A stretch of DNA of 64,000 bases, from NCBI GenBank assembly GCA_016350165.1, contig CP066225.1:744001-808000 (forward strand), in the 5' to 3' direction. The position numbers and the translations under genes were made by a program. The notes below the pieces were generated by a model, which worked only from the letters and a program-made list of their open reading frames with translations, did no database searches and had not been told where the DNA came from. The DNA comes from Planctomycetota bacterium. GTDB lineage: Bacteria > Planctomycetota > Phycisphaerae > Phycisphaerales > Phycisphaeraceae. This document shows positions 5,359 through 18,476 of the stretch, in pieces; position 1 is the stretch's first letter; each line of letters begins with the position of its first letter.

Positions 5359-5401
5359 AGTATTCATCCCCCCTGAAGTATCAATGTGAAGGAAATATGT
5401 G

Positions 5402-7366
5402 ATGAACCGGCAGCTCGATCCAACAACAGCAATGGAAAAAATGACGACTTACGTGCGTGACAATTCGACTTCGGTGAGTGCCGAAGTGGCGAATGAGATC
5501 GCGGCGCTGATCCGTGAGAAAGCTGGGAAGGGAGAGATGGCGGTGTTGGGATTGGCGACAGGCTCAACGCCAAAGGGTGTGTATCGGGAATTGATCCGGA
5601 TGCACCAAGAGGAAGGGTTATCTTTCAAGAATGTGATCACATTCAACTTGGATGAATACTTTCCGATTGAGCCTGACCATCTGCAGAGTTATGTGCGGTA
5701 CATGAATGAGCAGCTGTTTGAACATGTAGATATTGAGCCTGCGAACGTTCATGTGCCTGATGGTACGCAGGATGCGAAGGATGTGGTGAAATATTGTGCG
5801 GACTATGAAAGAAAGATTGCTGCAGCGGGTGGATTAGATTTGCAGATATTGGGCATCGGACGAACGGGTCATATTGGTTTTAACGAGCCGGGCTCTGGGG
5901 AGGAAAGTATTACGCGTATGATCTGGCTTGATGAAATTACGAGGCAAGATGCTTCGGGCGATTTCCAGAAGTTGGATAACGTGCCACACCGTGCGATTAC
6001 GATGGGTGTTGGAACGATCATGAAGGCGCAACGCGTGATTTTGATGGCATATGGTGTTGCGAAAACTTCGATCGTACAGAAGGCAATTGAAGGTGAAGTG
6101 ACGAGTGAAGTTGCGGCATCGTACTTGCAGAATCATGAGAATGCAGTGATTTATTTGGATCGCGCAGCGGCTGAATTGCTAACACGCTTTGATCGGCCTT
6201 GGCTGGTTGATCCGACATATGCGTGGGATGAGAACAGGATTATTAAGGCGACGATTTGGTTGGCAAGACGCTTAAATAAACCATTGCTGAAACTGACGGA
6301 TAAAGATTACAACAAGAACCACTTGCAGAGTTTGATTGCTGAGCATGGTCCTGCGTATGACATCAATTTGCGTGTATTCAGACAATTGCAAAGTACGATT
6401 ACAGGTTGGCCTGGTGGCAAGCCTGATAAGTTGAAGCAACCGGGCGACAGGAAATGGCCAAACGATGAAGTGTTTCCAAAGCGTATTGTACTTTTTTCGC
6501 CACACCCTGATGATGATGTGATCTCAATGGGTGGAACACAAATTCGTTTGTCAGATCAGGGACATGAAGTTCATGCTGCATATCAAACATCAGGAAATAT
6601 AGCGGTATTTGATGATGATGCGATGAAGTTTGCTGACTTTGCGTATGATTTCAACCGAATGTTTGGTATTGATAACGAGCGATCTCGTGAGATTGAATCT
6701 CATGTTGAACAATACCTGCATAACAAAGGTGTTGGTGAAAGTGACTCGACTGAAATAAGAACAATTAAGGGATTGATTAGACGATCGGAAGCGAGAGCTG
6801 GGTGTCGTTATTGTGGTATACCGGCTGATCGTGTTCACTTTTTGGACTTGCCGTTTTATGAGACAGGGCGAGTGGATAAGAAGCCGATTGGTGAAGAAGA
6901 TATTGAGATCATTCTTGAGTTCTTGAAGGATATCAAGCCACACCAGATTTATGCGGCAGGGGATTTGGCTGACCCACACGGTACGCATCGCGTGTGTTTG
7001 GATGCGGTCTTTGAAGCAGTTGATCGTTTGAAAGATGAAGAGTGGTATCAACAATGCCAGTTCTTTATGTATCGTGGCGCATGGCATGAATGGGAACCTG
7101 AGAGTATTGATATGTGTGTGCCGCTGTCGCCGATGGATGTAGAACGTAAACGGCAAGCAATTTTCAAGCATGAATCACAGAAAGATTCGGCGGTATTCCC
7201 GGGGAATGATCCGCGTGAATTTTGGCAACGTGCTGAAGAAAGAAATGCTGAAACAGCGACGTTGTATAACGCACTTGGATTACCTGAATATTCAGCAATG
7301 GAAGCGTTTGCGCTTTATACGGGTGATAAGAATTATCCAACTCGTATCAGTAAATCACAGTTGTGA
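5402..7366 (+). CDS. Glucosamine-6-phosphate deaminase-like protein fused to LmbE/PIG-L deacetylase domain
   Basis: 654 residues from the ATG at 5402, which has AAGGA about 8 nt upstream. Residues 10-270 are a NagB-type isomerase/deaminase domain with TFNLDEYFPIE and GIGRTGHIGFNEPGS. Aligned by motif to E. coli NagB, D84, H157 and E162 match the catalytic D72, H143 and E148, but the position of D141 is Thr155. Residues about 360-640 are an LmbE/PIG-L domain with the metal-binding motif PHPDDD near residue 367 and a later DPHGTH. NagB converts glucosamine-6-P to fructose-6-P and ammonia; PIG-L proteins de-N-acetylate GlcNAc conjugates. The two-domain form suggests deacetylation coupled to deamination of an amino sugar. 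First gene of the operon controlled from 5328. Confidence 0.85.
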   Translation: MNRQLDPTTAMEKMTTYVRDNSTSVSAEVANEIAALIREKAGKGEMAVLGLATGSTPKGVYRELIRMHQEEGLSFKNVITFNLDEYFPIEPDHLQSYVRYMNEQLFEHVDIEPANVHVPDGTQDAKDVVKYCADYERKIAAAGGLDLQILGIGRTGHIGFNEPGSGEESITRMIWLDEITRQDASGDFQKLDNVPHRAITMGVGTIMKAQRVILMAYGVAKTSIVQKAIEGEVTSEVAASYLQNHENAVIYLDRAAAELLTRFDRPWLVDPTYAWDENRIIKATIWLARRLNKPLLKLTDKDYNKNHLQSLIAEHGPAYDINLRVFRQLQSTITGWPGGKPDKLKQPGDRKWPNDEVFPKRIVLFSPHPDDDVISMGGTQIRLSDQGHEVHAAYQTSGNIAVFDDDAMKFADFAYDFNRMFGIDNERSREIESHVEQYLHNKGVGESDSTEIRTIKGLIRRSEARAGCRYCGIPADRVHFLDLPFYETGRVDKKPIGEEDIEIILEFLKDIKPHQIYAAGDLADPHGTHRVCLDAVFEAVDRLKDEEWYQQCQFFMYRGAWHEWEPESIDMCVPLSPMDVERKRQAIFKHESQKDSAVFPGNDPREFWQRAEERNAETATLYNALGLPEYSAMEAFALYTGDKNYPTRISKSQL

Positions 7367-11081: not shown

Positions 11082-14000
11082 TTAATCATCGAAATTTGGC
11101 GAGAGATCAAGAACAGGAAGTGCTTGATTGATTGGGGGCAGAGGCACGTTGATGTAACGTGAGACGTTTGGTACCTGGAGCGCTGCACGAAGTGCACGTA
11201 GATCACGCATGAGTTCTTTTTTGAGTGATGGGTAATATTGTTCAGTAAGGAAGAAGTATTTAGCAGCTTCTTCATCGATGAGATAAACCTTGTCATCTTT
11301 GATGCCTGGCATAAGGAGCTGGCGACCAATGGCAAACTTGGAGAGCGTGAGCATGTCGTGGCCGCCATTGAGGCGTACGACTTGTTTGAGGAGAATCGCC
11401 CGCTTGAGACGAACCAGATCTTTCTTGTTCTGAATTAGAATCGTGTATTGCTGCTTGCCCTCTTCGTTTGGTTGATTCATTTTCCAGAGAAGTTGATCCC
11501 ATGTATGGCGATCTGGACATTCTAGAATTCGTACTTCTGGTACTGGCTGGTTGAGAATATCGTCAACTTCGCCATCAGGTTGAAGTGTGTATGTAATCGC
11601 AATGACTCGACCTTTGAGTGCGTCGAAGACTTTTTCATCCTCTTCCTTTTTGTCATCTTGTGATGTATCGCTATAGACTTCGTTTGCGAAATCTGTTGCG
11701 TAATTCCAAAGGAATGAAACATCAAACTCGGCAATCGCTTCTTCATCGGGCTCAAAGAAGATAATCTTCTTTTCATTGATTCGTTCGTCGAGTCTCAAAC
11801 GTTTAACGACTTCGTACATTTGACGGTAAACAAGAATAGGTTCCCCGGGGAAACGTTCACCTACAAAGCGATCGAATGGGTAGCTTGCAGCCAAGCGGAA
11901 ATCACGGTCGATAGCCATGTTTGCGAGGCGCTTGTATTCCTGCAGTTTTTCGTTCTTTAGCAGGAAGCCAAGGTCAAATACATCTTCTGCACGAATACGA
12001 TAAGCATCACGGAAAAGTTTATGATTAAAGCTATCGAAGTTGTCTTCATCTTTTGGCAAGTTACGGCCAACAACACGGTTGTTGGGTAGTACATAAGGCG
12101 TGATGACAATGATAACTTCACGACGTTTTTTGGATTTATCGGTGCTGCGGAATAAGTTGCCAATTAAAGGGATGTCACCAAGCAGAGGTACTTTGTCGAC
12201 TTGGCTGTTTTCATCACGACTGACAAGACCACCAATGATGAATGGTGTATTGTTTGCGATACGTGTATGAGTTTGCACACGCCGTGTTGCGATACGTGGT
12301 GCACGAGCAAGTTCGTCGCCGTTGCTGGCACGGATGATTAACTCTTCACCTACGACCTCATTTGAAACGATACCATCAATTTGCATGCTGACTTCTTCGT
12401 TGTCGGCTGCGATGCGTGGACGAACATTGAGAAGAATGCCGACAGGGATGTATTGGAAGTCAAGTCGAACGTCAGAGGTGCTGCTTCCTTTGTATGACTT
12501 AGCAACTGGCAGTTCTTCGCCAACTCGGATTGAAGCTTGACGTGAATCGAGTGTGAGTACACTTGGACGTGAGAGGATTTCGGCATTGCCGTCTCTGACG
12601 AGTGCCTTTAATTGAGCTTTCCATTTACCGTTCAAGCTATCGATGGAAATGTCGAGAGATGGTGACTCATCGTTTGAAGGCTGGAAACTCGGTAAACGTC
12701 CAAAGACGACGTCTTGAATTCTTTCAAGTTCGCCGCCGAATGCATTGTTTAGTTCCCACTTGATACCAAGTTTGTTTAGTCCTGTTTCTGAGATTTCGAG
12801 AACCATCGCTTCGATGTAAATCTGTTGAGCGGGCAAATCGATGGTGTTACGGATACGGTCGAGTACGTCTGAGAATTGCTCTGGTTTTGCAGGGTTATAT
12901 AGAACCATGAGGTCCATTGCTCGTGCTGCGTTTGTGAAGTTACCTAGATTGGTGGCAACGCTTGGAGCGAGCGAGAGGCCGAAGGCAGCACCTTTGGTTG
13001 ATGTACCGCCGACAAGGTCAACGAAGTCAGGGGTTGGTGTAAGAATAATTGCAGGTAGATTTTTGGGATCAATACCCGTTGTGGGATTTGGATTGATTTG
13101 GCGATGTTTGGTTTCTTTTGAATTTTTATATGTAAAGTCAATACATTGGAATCCAAAACTTTTTAGTAGTGCAAGAGCACGGTCCGCATCAATGTAACTA
13201 AGGGTGATGAGCTCATTGGCTAGATCGCGTGTCCGAAGTGTTTTTGCTTGTTCATCGAGTTTCTTCTTGGCCTCATTGATTTTGGCTACGAAGAAATCGA
13301 GTTCTGCTTTAGCGGTGTTTGGAATTGAACCCAGTGTTTGAGCGTATACGTAAACGTGAGGTGGTTGTGAGCGGTATGTTTTGTAACCAAGATGCAGAAG
13401 ATGGACGCCGTCTTTTTCCTCACGTGCGAGAACGAGTTCGTCGTTCATGCCTGATGGTGGAGTAGGAAGCGTTTGCGTGAGCCAATCACTTGCTATGACA
13501 TAACCTTTTTCTGATTTTGCGTTGCTGGTTGCAATATCGATCAATTCATCAAGTTCGAGCTGGTTTACACCTGACATTGGAAAGAAGTCGCCAACACCTT
13601 TGTGAATGGTTCTCGATTTGCGTTTGCCTGTAATAGCAGTCTCTGGTTTTCTATCAAGATTACGTGCAAGTGGTATTGAACGTGAAGCAGCATTTTTTTC
13701 GATTACAGGGTTATTGGCCTGTGGTTTAGCTGGAGTTACTGGTTTCTTTTCTGCTAGTTTAGGAGCAGGCTTAGCTGCTGGTTTTGCGACTTCTTTTTTT
13801 TCTGCAGGCTTAACTTTTTCTTTTGCCTCAGGTTTCGCGGCTGCTTTGGCTGCAGGTTTGGCTGACTTTTCTGCTGGTTTTTTATCCTGAGCATAAAGAG
13901 GTGTACTGCTTGCGAATGAGATTGCACCGACAAGTAATGCGGCGGCGCACCAACTCATCATTGTTTTCATACTATCGCCAATACGTCCTGCGACTCCTGT

Positions 14001-15758
14001 ACCAAAACGTTCTGAGAGTTCATCCCTTGAGTAAACGCTCGCGTTCTTTTCGCCGAGTTCAACAACCATATCTGCATAGTTAAGCAAATCTCTATTGGTC
14101 GTAATCATGATGATTGTCCTGCCCTTCATGGCTTGGAGTACAGCTGGGATGATTTTTGCTTCGCTTTCTGGATCGACGGAAGAAGTGGCTTCGTCAAGAA
14201 TCAGAATACGTGGATCTTTCAATATAGCGCGAGCTAGAGCGATACGTTGCATCTCACCACGAGATAGACTGACACCATCGTTGCCACCGAGGTCAGTGCC
14301 GTAGCCGTGAGGTAATGCTGTAATAATTTCGTGAGCACCAGTGCTTTTAGCGATGTCAACAATTGTTTCGATAGTTGCATCTGGATTAGCATATTGCAGA
14401 TTCTCGAGAATAGTACTGTCAAACAACATGCAATCTTGGAAGGCTGTGCCAACGTTTTGGCGAAGGTGCTGAAGGTCGTAATCTTTCACATCGACACCAT
14501 CGACGAGGAGGAGGCCTTCTGAAACATCTATGAAGCGTGGTAACAGGTTCGCAAGCGTACTCTTACCGCATCCTGACGGACCAAGGAACGCGCAGACAGC
14601 ACCGGTTGGGATTTCGATATTGATGTCTTTTAGTAATGGCTCTCGATCATCAAATGCGACAGTGACCTGCCGGAAAGTAATGTCGCCACGAATTGGTTTT
14701 ACGATTGGAGTTGTGGCTTTATGCTCAGATTCATCGCTTTCGAGCAATTCAAATGCACGGTCGATACTTGCTGAAACGCGAGTTAGTTTTGCGAAACCAC
14801 TCATGAGTTCCATAACATTTGGGTAGAGCATATTAACGTAGCCGAAGAAAGCGAGGAATGTACCGATTTCCATCGCACTTTTGCCGCCATAAACCACTTG
14901 ATATGCACCGAAGCCTATAAGTGAAACGGTGCCGAGACCGATGAGAAGGTCACCGACAACTTTTTGCCTCACGTGGAATTTTTTGCTGCGGATTTGGCTT
15001 TGGCGTGAACTGTCGATAGCGCGTGAAAAGGCAGCATGTTCGCGGTTTTCGGCGGTGAAGCCTTTGACAACTTCTTGTGCGAGCAGCTTTTCGATGAGGT
15101 TGCTTTGAGCAATAGCGAGATGTTCTTGAGCTTCACTACTTGCAGCTTTAATGGGGCGTTTAAACCAAGTAGCTGCGAGAACATGAAGTGGAAGAACAGC
15201 AGTTGCGACGATAGCAAGTTGCCAATTCATCGCGTAAATAACGGCAATAAGACCAATGAATAGAAGAAGTGATTGAAGGAGAGTAGGTAAGTCATCCTGA
15301 ATGAAAGATTGGATGACAAAACTATCATTCATCACACGACTAGACATTTTTCCCGGGCTATGCTTGCGATAGAACTGCATGTTCTTTCGTTGCAATTGCT
15401 CGAAGAGTTGCTGACGAAGTTTAAATGAGACCTGCTCGCCAATGTTTACAGCGGTGAACTTGCTGTAGAAATAAAGAAGGTTTCTGGAACTATATACAAA
15501 GAGGTAGCCACCGATGATGATCCAGATGATTGCGAACTTGCGATCTTTAAGAACATCGTCCACGAGCAGCTTCAGCAGAATAGGCTGAAGCATATTGACG
15601 CCTGTGAGAATCATGAGGAGCACAAGCACGAATGAGATCTGCTTGAGGTTAGGTTGAAGGAGTGCTCCTAATCCGCGCAAAGACCCTGTGAGGTCATCCT
15701 TAGTAATGGCCCTTTTAGTCTCACCTCTTGGAATGTTATCATCCGATTCAGACTTCAT
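11082..15758 (-). CDS. ABC exporter half-transporter joined in frame to a secretin (1558 codons)
   Basis: Residues 1-590 are a complete ABC exporter half. There are six membrane segments, Walker A GPSGCGKST (393-401), Q-loop Gln441, signature LSRGE (instead of LSGGQ), and Walker B ILILDE ending at Glu523. The H-loop histidine appears replaced by Asn555 (ITTNRD). With no stop, residues 597-624 form a typical Sec signal peptide (MKTMMSWCAAALLVG, ending LYAQ), then an Ala/Lys/Pro-rich linker to about 690. From about 970 comes a secretin core: YIEAMVLEISETG, the region ending VPLLGDIPLIGNLF near 1190, and VITPYVLP near 1220. A tail of about 335 residues follows. Secretins form outer-membrane gates for type II secretion or type IV pili. 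Either this is a real fusion or two genes are read through; the ATG at 13970 is the likely secretin start. Divergent from the gene at 16158. Confidence 0.85.
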   Translation of the reverse strand: MKSESDDNIPRGETKRAITKDDLTGSLRGLGALLQPNLKQISFVLVLLMILTGVNMLQPILLKLLVDDVLKDRKFAIIWIIIGGYLFVYSSRNLLYFYSKFTAVNIGEQVSFKLRQQLFEQLQRKNMQFYRKHSPGKMSSRVMNDSFVIQSFIQDDLPTLLQSLLLFIGLIAVIYAMNWQLAIVATAVLPLHVLAATWFKRPIKAASSEAQEHLAIAQSNLIEKLLAQEVVKGFTAENREHAAFSRAIDSSRQSQIRSKKFHVRQKVVGDLLIGLGTVSLIGFGAYQVVYGGKSAMEIGTFLAFFGYVNMLYPNVMELMSGFAKLTRVSASIDRAFELLESDESEHKATTPIVKPIRGDITFRQVTVAFDDREPLLKDINIEIPTGAVCAFLGPSGCGKSTLANLLPRFIDVSEGLLLVDGVDVKDYDLQHLRQNVGTAFQDCMLFDSTILENLQYANPDATIETIVDIAKSTGAHEIITALPHGYGTDLGGNDGVSLSRGEMQRIALARAILKDPRILILDEATSSVDPESEAKIIPAVLQAMKGRTIIMITTNRDLLNYADMVVELGEKNASVYSRDELSERFGTGVAGRIGDSMKTMMSWCAAALLVGAISFASSTPLYAQDKKPAEKSAKPAAKAAAKPEAKEKVKPAEKKEVAKPAAKPAPKLAEKKPVTPAKPQANNPVIEKNAASRSIPLARNLDRKPETAITGKRKSRTIHKGVGDFFPMSGVNQLELDELIDIATSNAKSEKGYVIASDWLTQTLPTPPSGMNDELVLAREEKDGVHLLHLGYKTYRSQPPHVYVYAQTLGSIPNTAKAELDFFVAKINEAKKKLDEQAKTLRTRDLANELITLSYIDADRALALLKSFGFQCIDFTYKNSKETKHRQINPNPTTGIDPKNLPAIILTPTPDFVDLVGGTSTKGAAFGLSLAPSVATNLGNFTNAARAMDLMVLYNPAKPEQFSDVLDRIRNTIDLPAQQIYIEAMVLEISETGLNKLGIKWELNNAFGGELERIQDVVFGRLPSFQPSNDESPSLDISIDSLNGKWKAQLKALVRDGNAEILSRPSVLTLDSRQASIRVGEELPVAKSYKGSSTSDVRLDFQYIPVGILLNVRPRIAADNEEVSMQIDGIVSNEVVGEELIIRASNGDELARAPRIATRRVQTHTRIANNTPFIIGGLVSRDENSQVDKVPLLGDIPLIGNLFRSTDKSKKRREVIIVITPYVLPNNRVVGRNLPKDEDNFDSFNHKLFRDAYRIRAEDVFDLGFLLKNEKLQEYKRLANMAIDRDFRLAASYPFDRFVGERFPGEPILVYRQMYEVVKRLRLDERINEKKIIFFEPDEEAIAEFDVSFLWNYATDFANEVYSDTSQDDKKEEDEKVFDALKGRVIAITYTLQPDGEVDDILNQPVPEVRILECPDRHTWDQLLWKMNQPNEEGKQQYTILIQNKKDLVRLKRAILLKQVVRLNGGHDMLTLSKFAIGRQLLMPGIKDDKVYLIDEEAAKYFFLTEQYYPSLKKELMRDLRALRAALQVPNVSRYINVPLPPINQALPVLDLSPNFDD
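13690..13970 (-). other. Internal signal peptide and Ala/Lys/Pro-rich linker inside the ABC-secretin frame
   Basis: The segment starts at the in-frame ATG at 13970. The sequence across that ATG also contains ATGA, so a transporter frame shifted by one base would stop exactly in an ATGA overlap. It encodes a signal-peptide-like segment and then a low-complexity stretch of AKPAAK- and EKK-like units. It marks the ancestral boundary between transporter and secretin. Confidence 0.6.
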
Positions 15759-16157
15759 GCTCTGCCCAATCGAGCTTCCTGCTCACGATTAATGACATCC
15801 TGTCCGGTCAGAAGCGAATAATCACTTCATGCTCAGCATCCGTAACACATATATAGATATGCAAGGAGCATGCGCCACACGTCATGAGCTGAACTCACCC
15901 AATCATCCCAATCTCTGCCGACCGTTGCATATGTTGGAGACATTTTCCTCGAATCCCAGCAAATCAGCAAGCTTCTTCTTATCTGTCCATACTGAATCCC
16001 CTTATTTAACTCAAAATGGCCACGTACCCTAAGAATTATCGGCCAAACCCCTCTCGCCCTCACGCATTTTGGCATATAAACTAAACCCATTGATGGGAAA
16101 ATGCAGCACAATGCCTTTTCAAGTCGATTCAAGAGTAGCAAGGTTACGGAGACTCAT
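15759..16157. other. Divergent intergenic region (about 400 bases)
   Basis: Lies between the start of the ABC-secretin gene (minus) and the fusion gene at 16158 (plus). It must hold both promoters, but no convincing -35/-10 pair or palindrome was recognised. The top strand changes from G-rich to C-rich here. No gene is supported. Confidence 0.4.
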
Positions 16158-18476
16158 ATGACCCATCAGCAAGCAGGCCAAGATGCCAAGCTAGCAGGTC
16201 GTTCAGAAAAACAAGCTTCCCCTGCCCTCCCGGAAGCCTCGGAAGTAGTACCCGTGAAATCACACCCTATTGGTATCGCTCAGCTACCAGAAATCGACTT
16301 ACGCCAACTTTATCAACTCACTGATGACACCGGGATTTTTCAGCATGCGGTTTATGCTGCACCTGATCCAAATCACGGTTACTGCATTGATGATAATGCG
16401 CGTGCATTGATAGCGGCGGTGTTGCATGCTCGACTTAGAGGTTATGACGAGCGAATTGTTCCTTTGCAAAGATATCTGACATTTTTAGCGTATGCTTTTA
16501 ACGAAGATACGCAAGCGTTTCGAAATTTCATGGGATATGATCGGCATTGGCTGGAAGATATTGGATCAACGGATTCGCAAGGCCGCACGATCTGGGCTCT
16601 TGGGCTAACTGTACACTATGCCCCGAATGAAATTATCCGTGAGCTTGCCGAGCAACTACTATTCAAGAGCTATCATGCAGTCGAAAAATTTCAGTTCATT
16701 CGCTCTCAAACTTTTTCACTCATCGGTTTACAAGAATATTTAAATTTCAATCCTGCACATGAAGAAATCAGTGAACTTCGGGACCAGATAGCGAATCGAC
16801 TTTTTGATGCGTACAAAGCTCATGCAACAGATGAGTGGCCTTGGTGGGAAGACACCGTTACATATGATAATGCCAAATTACCCCATGCATTATTGATTTG
16901 CGGACGTGCAATGCATCGCCAAGATATGATTGATGCTGCTTTAAAATCGTTAGATTGGTTATACAAAATCCAATTGGCTGATGATGGGCATCTTTCAATT
17001 ATTGGTAATGATGGCTGGTACCAAAAAGGTAAGCAAAAAGCTGGCTTTGATCAGCAACCACTTGAAGCTTATGCAATGGTGCATGGCCACCTCACTGCAG
17101 CATCAATTACGGGTGAAGAAAAGTGGGCAGAGTACGCTTGGACATGCTTCCATTGGTTTACAGGCCGAAATGATACGGGTGTTCCACTGTATCACCCAGA
17201 GACAGGTGGATGCCAAGATGGTTTGGAAGTGAGTGGCCCGAACAAAAACCAAGGTGCTGAATCATCTCTTGCATATTTATTATCTGTATTAGAACTACAT
17301 TTGTACTATGAATTACAAGCATCACGCATCACAGCTGAATCTCCTCAGGTACTTGGACTTGGATTGATTGGTGCAAGTAATACTGCAGCTTTTTCGCTAG
17401 CACAATATGCGAAGCTGGAAATAATAAAACCAATAGCTGCATGGTCACCATCCATAGATAAAACGAAACATGTTGCGACTCCCTTAAGCATGTCTATTGC
17501 TAATGATTTCACAGAGATATTGAATAATCCTGAGATTCAAATTGTTTATATCGCATCTGAGCCTAACATGCGATCAGATCATGCAATCACGGCATTAAAT
17601 GCAGGTAAGCATGTGTTATGTGAAAAGCCAATCGCAATTGATCTTGGTAGTGCACATCAAATCATTCAAACTGCTCATCAACGAGATTTAGTTTTTGGTG
17701 TTAATCTGATGATGCGTTTTGGCCCTTTGGCTCAGCCAATCAAACAGATGATTAGACGAGCAGTTTTAGGTATGCCTCTTCGAGGATACTATGTCAACCG
17801 AGCAGGTGATGCGGGCTTGCCAGATAATCACTGGTTTTGGAATCCCGAAATTTCAGGTGGCATTTTCGTAGAACATGGCGTGCACTCCTTTGACATGTTG
17901 CGATACTGGCTTGGCGAGGCACAGGTTTTATCTGCATCAAGATTCCGTCGATATTTCAACGAAGAAACTGAAGGTGATGTATTAATTGATCAAGCGACAT
18001 GTGATTTGCGCTACGGCTACCAAACAACAATCAACTTTTACCATGGATTTAACCAGCCGGTTCCTTTAGATATGCAAGATACGCGGATCATTTTTGAACG
18101 TGGGCAAATATTATTGAGAGGTTGGATACCTTCGTTTGTTGAGGTACGAGGATTATTAACTGATTCGGAAATCGAGCAATTAGAAAAGCTATTTCCTGAT
18201 GCTGCAATAAAAACAATTCGTACGTTTGATGAACCAACCGATATTATTCACCATCACGGCAGAAGTACGCGAATTGATCGAGAAATACAGATGAATTGGT
18301 CTAGTCCACATGACAAGCAAACACTGTACGGCCAAGCTACTAAACTGTTAATGGAGGATTTTATTAAGCGAATCAACCATCGACGTCATCAGTTAAGAGC
18401 TGATGCAAATGATGCGCTTGCAGCTCTTACTATTGCATTAGATGCTGATCGTATTGCTAAAGGAGTCACACCATGA
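16158..18476 (+). CDS. Fusion of an alpha/alpha-barrel carbohydrate-active domain with a Gfo/Idh/MocA oxidoreductase
   Basis: 772 residues from the ATG at 16158 (GGAG 6 nt upstream; the frame is open to 16101 but without a better site). Residues about 50-385 are a helical toroid-like domain with LTDDTGIFQHAVY, HGYCIDDNARALIA and TDEWPWWEDTVTYDNAKLPH. I know such domains from planctomycete and cyanobacterial proteins linked to glycosyltransferases or mannoside metabolism; their reaction is not established to my knowledge. From about residue 398 a Rossmann fold begins (GLGLIGAS) with CEKPIA and GGIFVEHGVHSFD, the standard Gfo/Idh/MocA features. The stop overlaps the next start (ATGA), so the two genes are coupled. 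The second half is clearly paralogous to the next gene. Confidence 0.75.
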   Translation: MTHQQAGQDAKLAGRSEKQASPALPEASEVVPVKSHPIGIAQLPEIDLRQLYQLTDDTGIFQHAVYAAPDPNHGYCIDDNARALIAAVLHARLRGYDERIVPLQRYLTFLAYAFNEDTQAFRNFMGYDRHWLEDIGSTDSQGRTIWALGLTVHYAPNEIIRELAEQLLFKSYHAVEKFQFIRSQTFSLIGLQEYLNFNPAHEEISELRDQIANRLFDAYKAHATDEWPWWEDTVTYDNAKLPHALLICGRAMHRQDMIDAALKSLDWLYKIQLADDGHLSIIGNDGWYQKGKQKAGFDQQPLEAYAMVHGHLTAASITGEEKWAEYAWTCFHWFTGRNDTGVPLYHPETGGCQDGLEVSGPNKNQGAESSLAYLLSVLELHLYYELQASRITAESPQVLGLGLIGASNTAAFSLAQYAKLEIIKPIAAWSPSIDKTKHVATPLSMSIANDFTEILNNPEIQIVYIASEPNMRSDHAITALNAGKHVLCEKPIAIDLGSAHQIIQTAHQRDLVFGVNLMMRFGPLAQPIKQMIRRAVLGMPLRGYYVNRAGDAGLPDNHWFWNPEISGGIFVEHGVHSFDMLRYWLGEAQVLSASRFRRYFNEETEGDVLIDQATCDLRYGYQTTINFYHGFNQPVPLDMQDTRIIFERGQILLRGWIPSFVEVRGLLTDSEIEQLEKLFPDAAIKTIRTFDEPTDIIHHHGRSTRIDREIQMNWSSPHDKQTLYGQATKLLMEDFIKRINHRRHQLRADANDALAALTIALDADRIAKGVTP

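Follow-up and report, generated by a model that had tools for sequence, protein, structure and literature searches.

How a cell could make use of a single open frame that encodes, one after the other, half of an inner-membrane ABC exporter and an outer-membrane secretin, with an export signal between them, is the question raised by one locus in the window (the whole stretch of 64,000 nucleotides that was analysed, positions 744,001 to 808,000 of contig CP066225.1 in assembly GCA_016350165.1 of a Planctomycetota bacterium). By taking into account the comparison of sequences reported here, the gene probably encodes a polyprotein, which would be cut by a signal peptidase (SPase I or II) into an ABC exporter and a secretin that are proposed to act jointly. 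The frame runs on the minus strand from 15758 to 11082, with 1558 codons free of stops and a product of 1558 aa. A first-pass annotation, which left the strand unnamed, had described a 1558-codon frame with these two parts at 11082–15758, and the Pfam domains agree with its description. It had also placed a Sec signal in mid-protein, and a signal-like stretch is indeed found at residues 597–624 (MKTMMSWCAAALLVGAISFASSTPLYA, with Q after the predicted cut). Their sequence, MKTMMSWCAAALLVGAISFASSTPLYAQ, is typical of a Sec signal, includes an SPase I-like site and begins at the ATG at 13970, which is codon 597. The ATGA in a shifted frame, noticed at the junction by the same annotation, is likewise present, as this ATG with a TGA in the +1 frame. 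The parts of the gene are as follows.

11082–15758, minus strand: whole fused gene (ABC exporter, embedded signal, secretin and C-terminal domain; 1558 aa).
14829–15632, minus strand: ABC transmembrane domain, residues 43–310 (Pfam ABC_membrane PF00664, E 1.1e-37).
14181–14633, minus strand: ABC nucleotide-binding domain (NBD), residues 376–526 (Pfam ABC_tran PF00005, E 2.5e-28), with Walker A GPSGCGKST, signature LSRGE and Walker B ILILDEATSSVD; the H-loop lies just past Walker B.
13971–14048, minus strand: hydrophilic linker between the NBD and the signal, about residues 571–596 (approximate limits).
13887–13970, minus strand: embedded signal, residues 597–624, with its hydrophobic core at 604–618 and an SPase I cut predicted from the motif between A623 and Q624.
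13968–13970, minus strand: candidate internal start ATG, codon 597; more ATG codons begin at 13961 and 13958.
13596–13886, minus strand: Pro/Ala/Lys-rich linker, residues 625–721, presumably periplasmic.
12606–13595, minus strand: conserved N-terminal part of the secretin half, residues 722–1051 (alignment A1; without a Pfam match in the window protein).
12087–12605, minus strand: secretin domain, residues 1052–1224 (Pfam Secretin PF00263, E 3.4e-43).
11085–12065, minus strand: C-terminal domain of about 300 aa that accompanies this secretin family (alignment A2).

The first half combines ABC_membrane and ABC_tran in one chain, as in type IV (ABCB/MsbA-like) exporters, and resembles these half-transporters in its full transmembrane and nucleotide-binding domains and in its intact Walker residues, the Walker A Lys and Walker B Asp-Glu being found in 54/54 ABC rows. 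The H-loop His, a usual though not strictly defining residue, is present in 52 of the 54 and replaced by Thr in the window protein (residue 554, 14097–14099) and by Ser in Poriferisphaera corsica KS4 (L031), a loss that may slow ATP turnover in these two Poriferisphaera. In NCBIfam, the ABC half comes near MsbA-like exporters and the secretin half near GspD, and none of the matches listed (25 of 189) reaches its curated cut-off. The exporter differs from the MsbA/ABCB type also in that its own profile sets it apart as a dedicated family, with scores of at least 522 bits against at most 455 bits for other ABC proteins among the matches listed in the phylum draw.

On the secretin half of the window protein, PF00263 scores 147.6 bits (gathering score, 27.5), and the domain is matched by 15/15 aligned rows; Secretin_N is matched by one of the 15 (E 0.007), a row other than the window protein. 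The closest solved relatives by sequence are the GspD secretins of type II secretion (T2SS), with which it shares the secretin domain, but from which it differs in the extra C-terminal domain, in the fusion to an ABC exporter and in a score well below the cut-off of the GspD equivalog TIGR02517 (179 bits against 351.35). The host genome contains nine secretin matches, two of them weak, so that the fused secretin need not be the gate of a T2SS or a pilus. For the C-terminal domain no convincing Pfam or PDB match was obtained: the PDB sequence hits, mainly to designed armadillo repeats (about 40 positions, E down to 8e-06), contain no stretch that is significant alone and were rejected as spurious, and AlphaFold2 modelling of the domain from two sequences gave a mean pLDDT of 36. 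The assigned parts all belong to known families. In a relative, a secretin domain was seen within an open frame of 3765 aa (G036:C121:21961-22458).

The comparison with orthologous loci, which the first-pass annotation had proposed as a check, established how widespread the arrangement is. The profile of the C-terminal domain (A2) matched 61 of 301 genomes of the host's order, and the ABC exporter and the secretin lie in one frame in 36 of these 61 genomes carrying this secretin, a number that goes beyond chance; the 36 are spread over 20 genera and 6 families. The remainder comprises 18 genomes in which the two genes are adjacent and separate (17 with the ABC gene first and one with the secretin first, G171 being entered here though the contig start cuts its ABC), one with the two on different contigs (G157), two with the secretin only and no dedicated-family ABC (G021 and G059) and four cut by contig ends. 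The fused frames measure 1441–1728 aa from stop to stop in 35 of the 36 genomes, the exception being G040, whose ABC half is broken between the transmembrane domain and the NBD into frames of 395 and 1310 aa (L042 6085-11069, on a 2.86-Mb contig), by a frameshift or a true split. In G048, part of the C-terminal domain (profile positions 219-297) is encoded a second time, about 2 kb from the fused gene (L081 ~1939-2175; G048:C20:319938-320174).

Stop loss had been one of the explanations put forward at the outset, and the out-of-frame ATGA where the two parts meet would fit an artefact or a recent stop loss joining unrelated neighbours; nevertheless, the congener P. corsica KS4 has the same fusion, as have 34 other genomes of the order. 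This origin is thus refuted by relatives with the same frame (KS4 and 20 genera of the order), and a sequencing error or recent loss of a stop keeps a negligible probability.

Beyond the order, the A2 profile matched 21/298 genomes of a class draw (five outside the order) and 8/294 of a phylum draw (two outside the order), the three draws being overlapping. Three f98 genomes have the pair adjacent with the ABC gene first, in G570 it is adjacent and reversed (the secretin preceding the ABC), in G728 and G784 no dedicated-family ABC accompanies the secretin, and G409 is cut by a contig end. A whole-protein search of 41 genomes recovered the same long frame in 12 relatives, a contig scan with one protein found one partial related locus in a Phycisphaerales MAG, and the viral contigs searched contained no relative. 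As no match was obtained in 240 of the 301 order genomes, the system is patchy. Nor is the pair obligatory, as indicated by G021, G059, G728 and G784, with the secretin and no dedicated ABC, and by G316, in which an ABC protein of the same family (L123 6899-8827, 522 bits) is found without this secretin in the 15 kb examined. The G316 gene is followed by several ORFs with pilin-like N-termini, as judged by eye.

A tree of 65 secretins was rooted on G570 and G409, both on long branches. Three genomes cut by contig ends (G020, G149 and G133) were left out of the trees, the cut G062 and G409 were kept in the trees and out of the state counts, and G157 was labelled in this count as secretin alone, though its dedicated ABC was found on another of its contigs. 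In this tree the unfused f98 secretins fall outside all others, followed by two clades, each with many fused rows, so that f98 and G570, both unfused, branch outside an ingroup that is mostly fused. Nested within the clades are unfused groups (g8; g80 with g91; g46, in reversed order) and secretin-alone rows, which brings the total to seven state changes. The simplest story is that the two genes fused once, in the ancestor of the order, that on several later occasions they split again or the ABC half was lost, and that G728/G784 acquired their secretin by transfer (fork 95/69); weak forks around g8 (83/70) and the long branches leave its details loose. In the ABC tree clade II reappears, as do many small groups, but clade I forms a basal grade, and on an informal comparison of topologies G042, G043 and G055 take other positions than among the secretins. 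The fusion is real and old, and is apparently kept by selection.

At the junction itself (G021 and the first G040 piece being without a usable one), all 36 fused rows present a hydrophilic linker of 33–103 residues followed by a hydrophobic core. In clade II (f2–f5) a lipobox-like [GAS]C closes the core in 20/20 fused rows, the background rate of this motif being 0.0021 per 14-residue window, and in clade I it does so in 0/16. The clade II rows are kin (nine g69 and five g28) and do not amount to 20 independent cases, and in g28 the residues at −3/−2 before the Cys are non-canonical for a lipobox. Among unfused rows the motif is found in 15/16 of clade II, 0/7 of clade I and 0/4 of the outgroup, the clade II exception being the unfused G728, which is nested in the clade and lacks the Cys. 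Thus, G728 apart, fused and unfused rows are alike within each clade, and the type of signal tracks the clade rather than the fusion. As far as clade I is concerned, an SPase I-like site, defined by a loose motif, is found in 16/16 fused rows, which is by itself weak evidence because the motif is frequent in shuffled sequences (average, 12.3 rows; 16 of 2000 shuffles reach 16). A narrower pattern, with Ala before the cut and Q, D or E as the mature start, fits 14/16 clade I rows against 5.0 in shuffles, having been chosen post hoc from the rows themselves.

At the level of motifs, therefore, the protein contains an internal signal with a cleavage site after a polytopic domain. A hydrophobic stretch that follows a cytoplasmic NBD is expected to have its N-terminal side inside and its C-terminal side outside, which is the correct orientation for an export signal. 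The view of the first-pass annotation, that a mid-protein signal peptide can work only if the product is cut or internally started, was right in part, but the N-in/C-out orientation expected here would suit an export signal.

The main rival to the reading of the gene as a polyprotein is internal initiation at the ATG at 13970, already considered in the first-pass annotation, by which a separate pre-secretin with an ordinary N-terminal signal would be made, in the manner of coupled genes, with the ABC chain running on or being a minor read-through product. The junction ATG is kept in both Poriferisphaera (the host and KS4), and in the nine g69 genomes with MKHP, so that in these bacteria cleavage may be supplemented, or even substituted, by internal initiation. 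The n-region MKTMMSW also resembles the start of a signal peptide, and in 8/10 of the split g80 relatives a candidate start and the stop of the ABC gene overlap, by 4 or 1 nt, which makes the fused and the coupled forms close in sequence terms. Internal initiation is thus possible in the genus of the window, but it can hardly be general, and overall it is unlikely. When ATG, GTG and TTG are counted (rarer start codons being outside the count), some candidate start lies within 35 codons before the core in 33/36 fused rows, yet G023, G138 and G048 have none from codon −35 up to the core, and G003 has only a distant one, a GTG at −24. Moreover, no start with a Shine–Dalgarno match of at least 4 nt is present in 26/36 fused rows, nor does any such match precede the window ATGs at 13970, 13961 and 13958; in KS4 AGGA precedes one of its own ATGs, and the bacteria considered here may not rely on Shine–Dalgarno sites. 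Finally, an ABC chain that terminated by itself would be expected to accumulate stops in the linker, and a stop is absent in 20 genera; the probabilities that the linker stays open at saturation, with each genus at its own base composition, multiply to 10^-16.5, a rough value obtained on rows picked for openness.

The product might also stay uncut, with the signal serving as a seventh transmembrane helix and each secretin subunit tethered to an ABC half-transporter, so as to form a ring of pumps under one gate. The open frame is kept across the order, the expected orientation would suit a membrane anchor, and the stretches after the helix are often rich in Pro and Ala and could span part of the periplasm. 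However, neither an anchor nor a dead relic would need a cleavage site, and the retention of a site, such as the Cys in every fused clade II row, is the main argument for cutting. N-terminal lipidation requires that the signal be cut, and the arrangement has apparently been split more than once, which indicates that the tether is not essential. A lasting fusion is on these grounds improbable, even more so than internal initiation. Processing of one product is instead the best supported of the three readings offered by the first-pass annotation, by virtue of the kept signal-peptidase sites and of the matching signal type in free relatives.

With processing as the preferred reading, we infer translation as one chain, cleavage, a 1:1 output and joint export, along the following path. 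The first ~570 residues would form one half of a type IV (ABCB/MsbA-like) exporter, placed in the inner membrane with its NBD on the cytoplasmic side, and the embedded hydrophobic stretch, as a true export signal, would insert N-in/C-out and thread the remainder of the chain through the Sec translocon. SPase I would then cut between A623 and Q624 in the genus of the window, and LspA at the Cys in the sister clade, to yield ABC exporter and mature secretin in presumably equal numbers. In the clade with the Cys the secretin would receive a lipid, and might then reach the outer membrane by piloting, like the liposecretin HxcQ of Pseudomonas aeruginosa. The ABC dimer would energise passage across the inner membrane, with the secretin ring as the outer-membrane exit, for a substrate that, at a guess, may be a peptide, a lipid or a glycolipid.

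Individual features of this scheme have counterparts in known systems. FbcH, the Bradyrhizobium cytochrome b/c1 polyprotein, offers an analogy for the maturation step in that a polytopic membrane protein is followed by an internal signal, where the chain is cut to free a second protein; the proteins themselves differ, and cutting is here a prediction at the level of motifs. The Cys-type signal of the clade II secretins (20/20 fused and 15/16 unfused rows) is like that of HxcQ, but in the fused rows this signal sits midway along a polyprotein, and the signal of the window protein is instead of the SPase I type. Type I secretion (T1SS) couples an ABC exporter with an HlyD adaptor and TolC, and ABC exporters spanning two membranes use TolC-type channels. 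The fused system may work like a T1SS with the secretin as exit, since it would likewise join an ABC exporter to an outer-membrane channel for export; it differs from a T1SS in that the channel is a secretin and not TolC, and in that the two parts lie in one frame.

The gene neighbourhood was inspected for further components. Across the 13 loci compared (with G002, G003 and G020, on short contigs, left out, and with a clustering that also merged antisense ORFs and paralogues), a neighbour recurs between genera only once, as one gene shared by G021 and G023. When 11 window neighbours and 18 genes near four relatives were scanned with Pfam, mostly metabolic families were returned, and none of the TolC, HlyD or T2SS ATPase and platform families was present among these 29. 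The fused system thus fails the marks of T1SS (a TolC or adaptor gene beside it) and of T2SS (gsp platform genes beside it and the GspD cut-off) that were tested, and is classed with neither. The linkage of exporter and secretin persists, also in reversed order, which argues that the two halves act together, presumably as inner-membrane exporter and outer-membrane gate.

Known secretins belong to type II, type III and type IV pilus machines or to phage export. It is possible, and we propose it tentatively without regarding it as probable, that the ABC exporter and its secretin gate are a new double-membrane export machine, made in a fixed ratio from one polyprotein, which would be cut by SPase I or, in the sister clade, by the lipoprotein peptidase. 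In the open-licence PMC literature, no paper on an ABC exporter–secretin fusion was recognised from titles and abstract openings among the matches listed, which is no proof of its being unpublished. The conserved link between the two suggests another design of export path, in bacteria with a little-understood envelope. That the signal switches between the peptidase I and the lipoprotein type without loss of the fusion renders the polyprotein maturation of machine parts open to a direct test in cultured organisms.

Some further observations concern the surroundings of the gene. One pilin-like N_methyl protein is encoded near the G016 copy. In the window, a Wzm/Wzt-like ABC pair lies 6–8 kb from the fused gene, and two other long frames combine different parts. 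The frame at 5399-7366 (655 aa) joins a glucosamine-6-phosphate isomerase and a PIG-L de-N-acetylase domain, and that at 16101-18476 (791 aa) is a possible fusion, in which some 400 residues without a Pfam match at E 0.001 precede a Gfo/Idh/MocA oxidoreductase that forms its second half.
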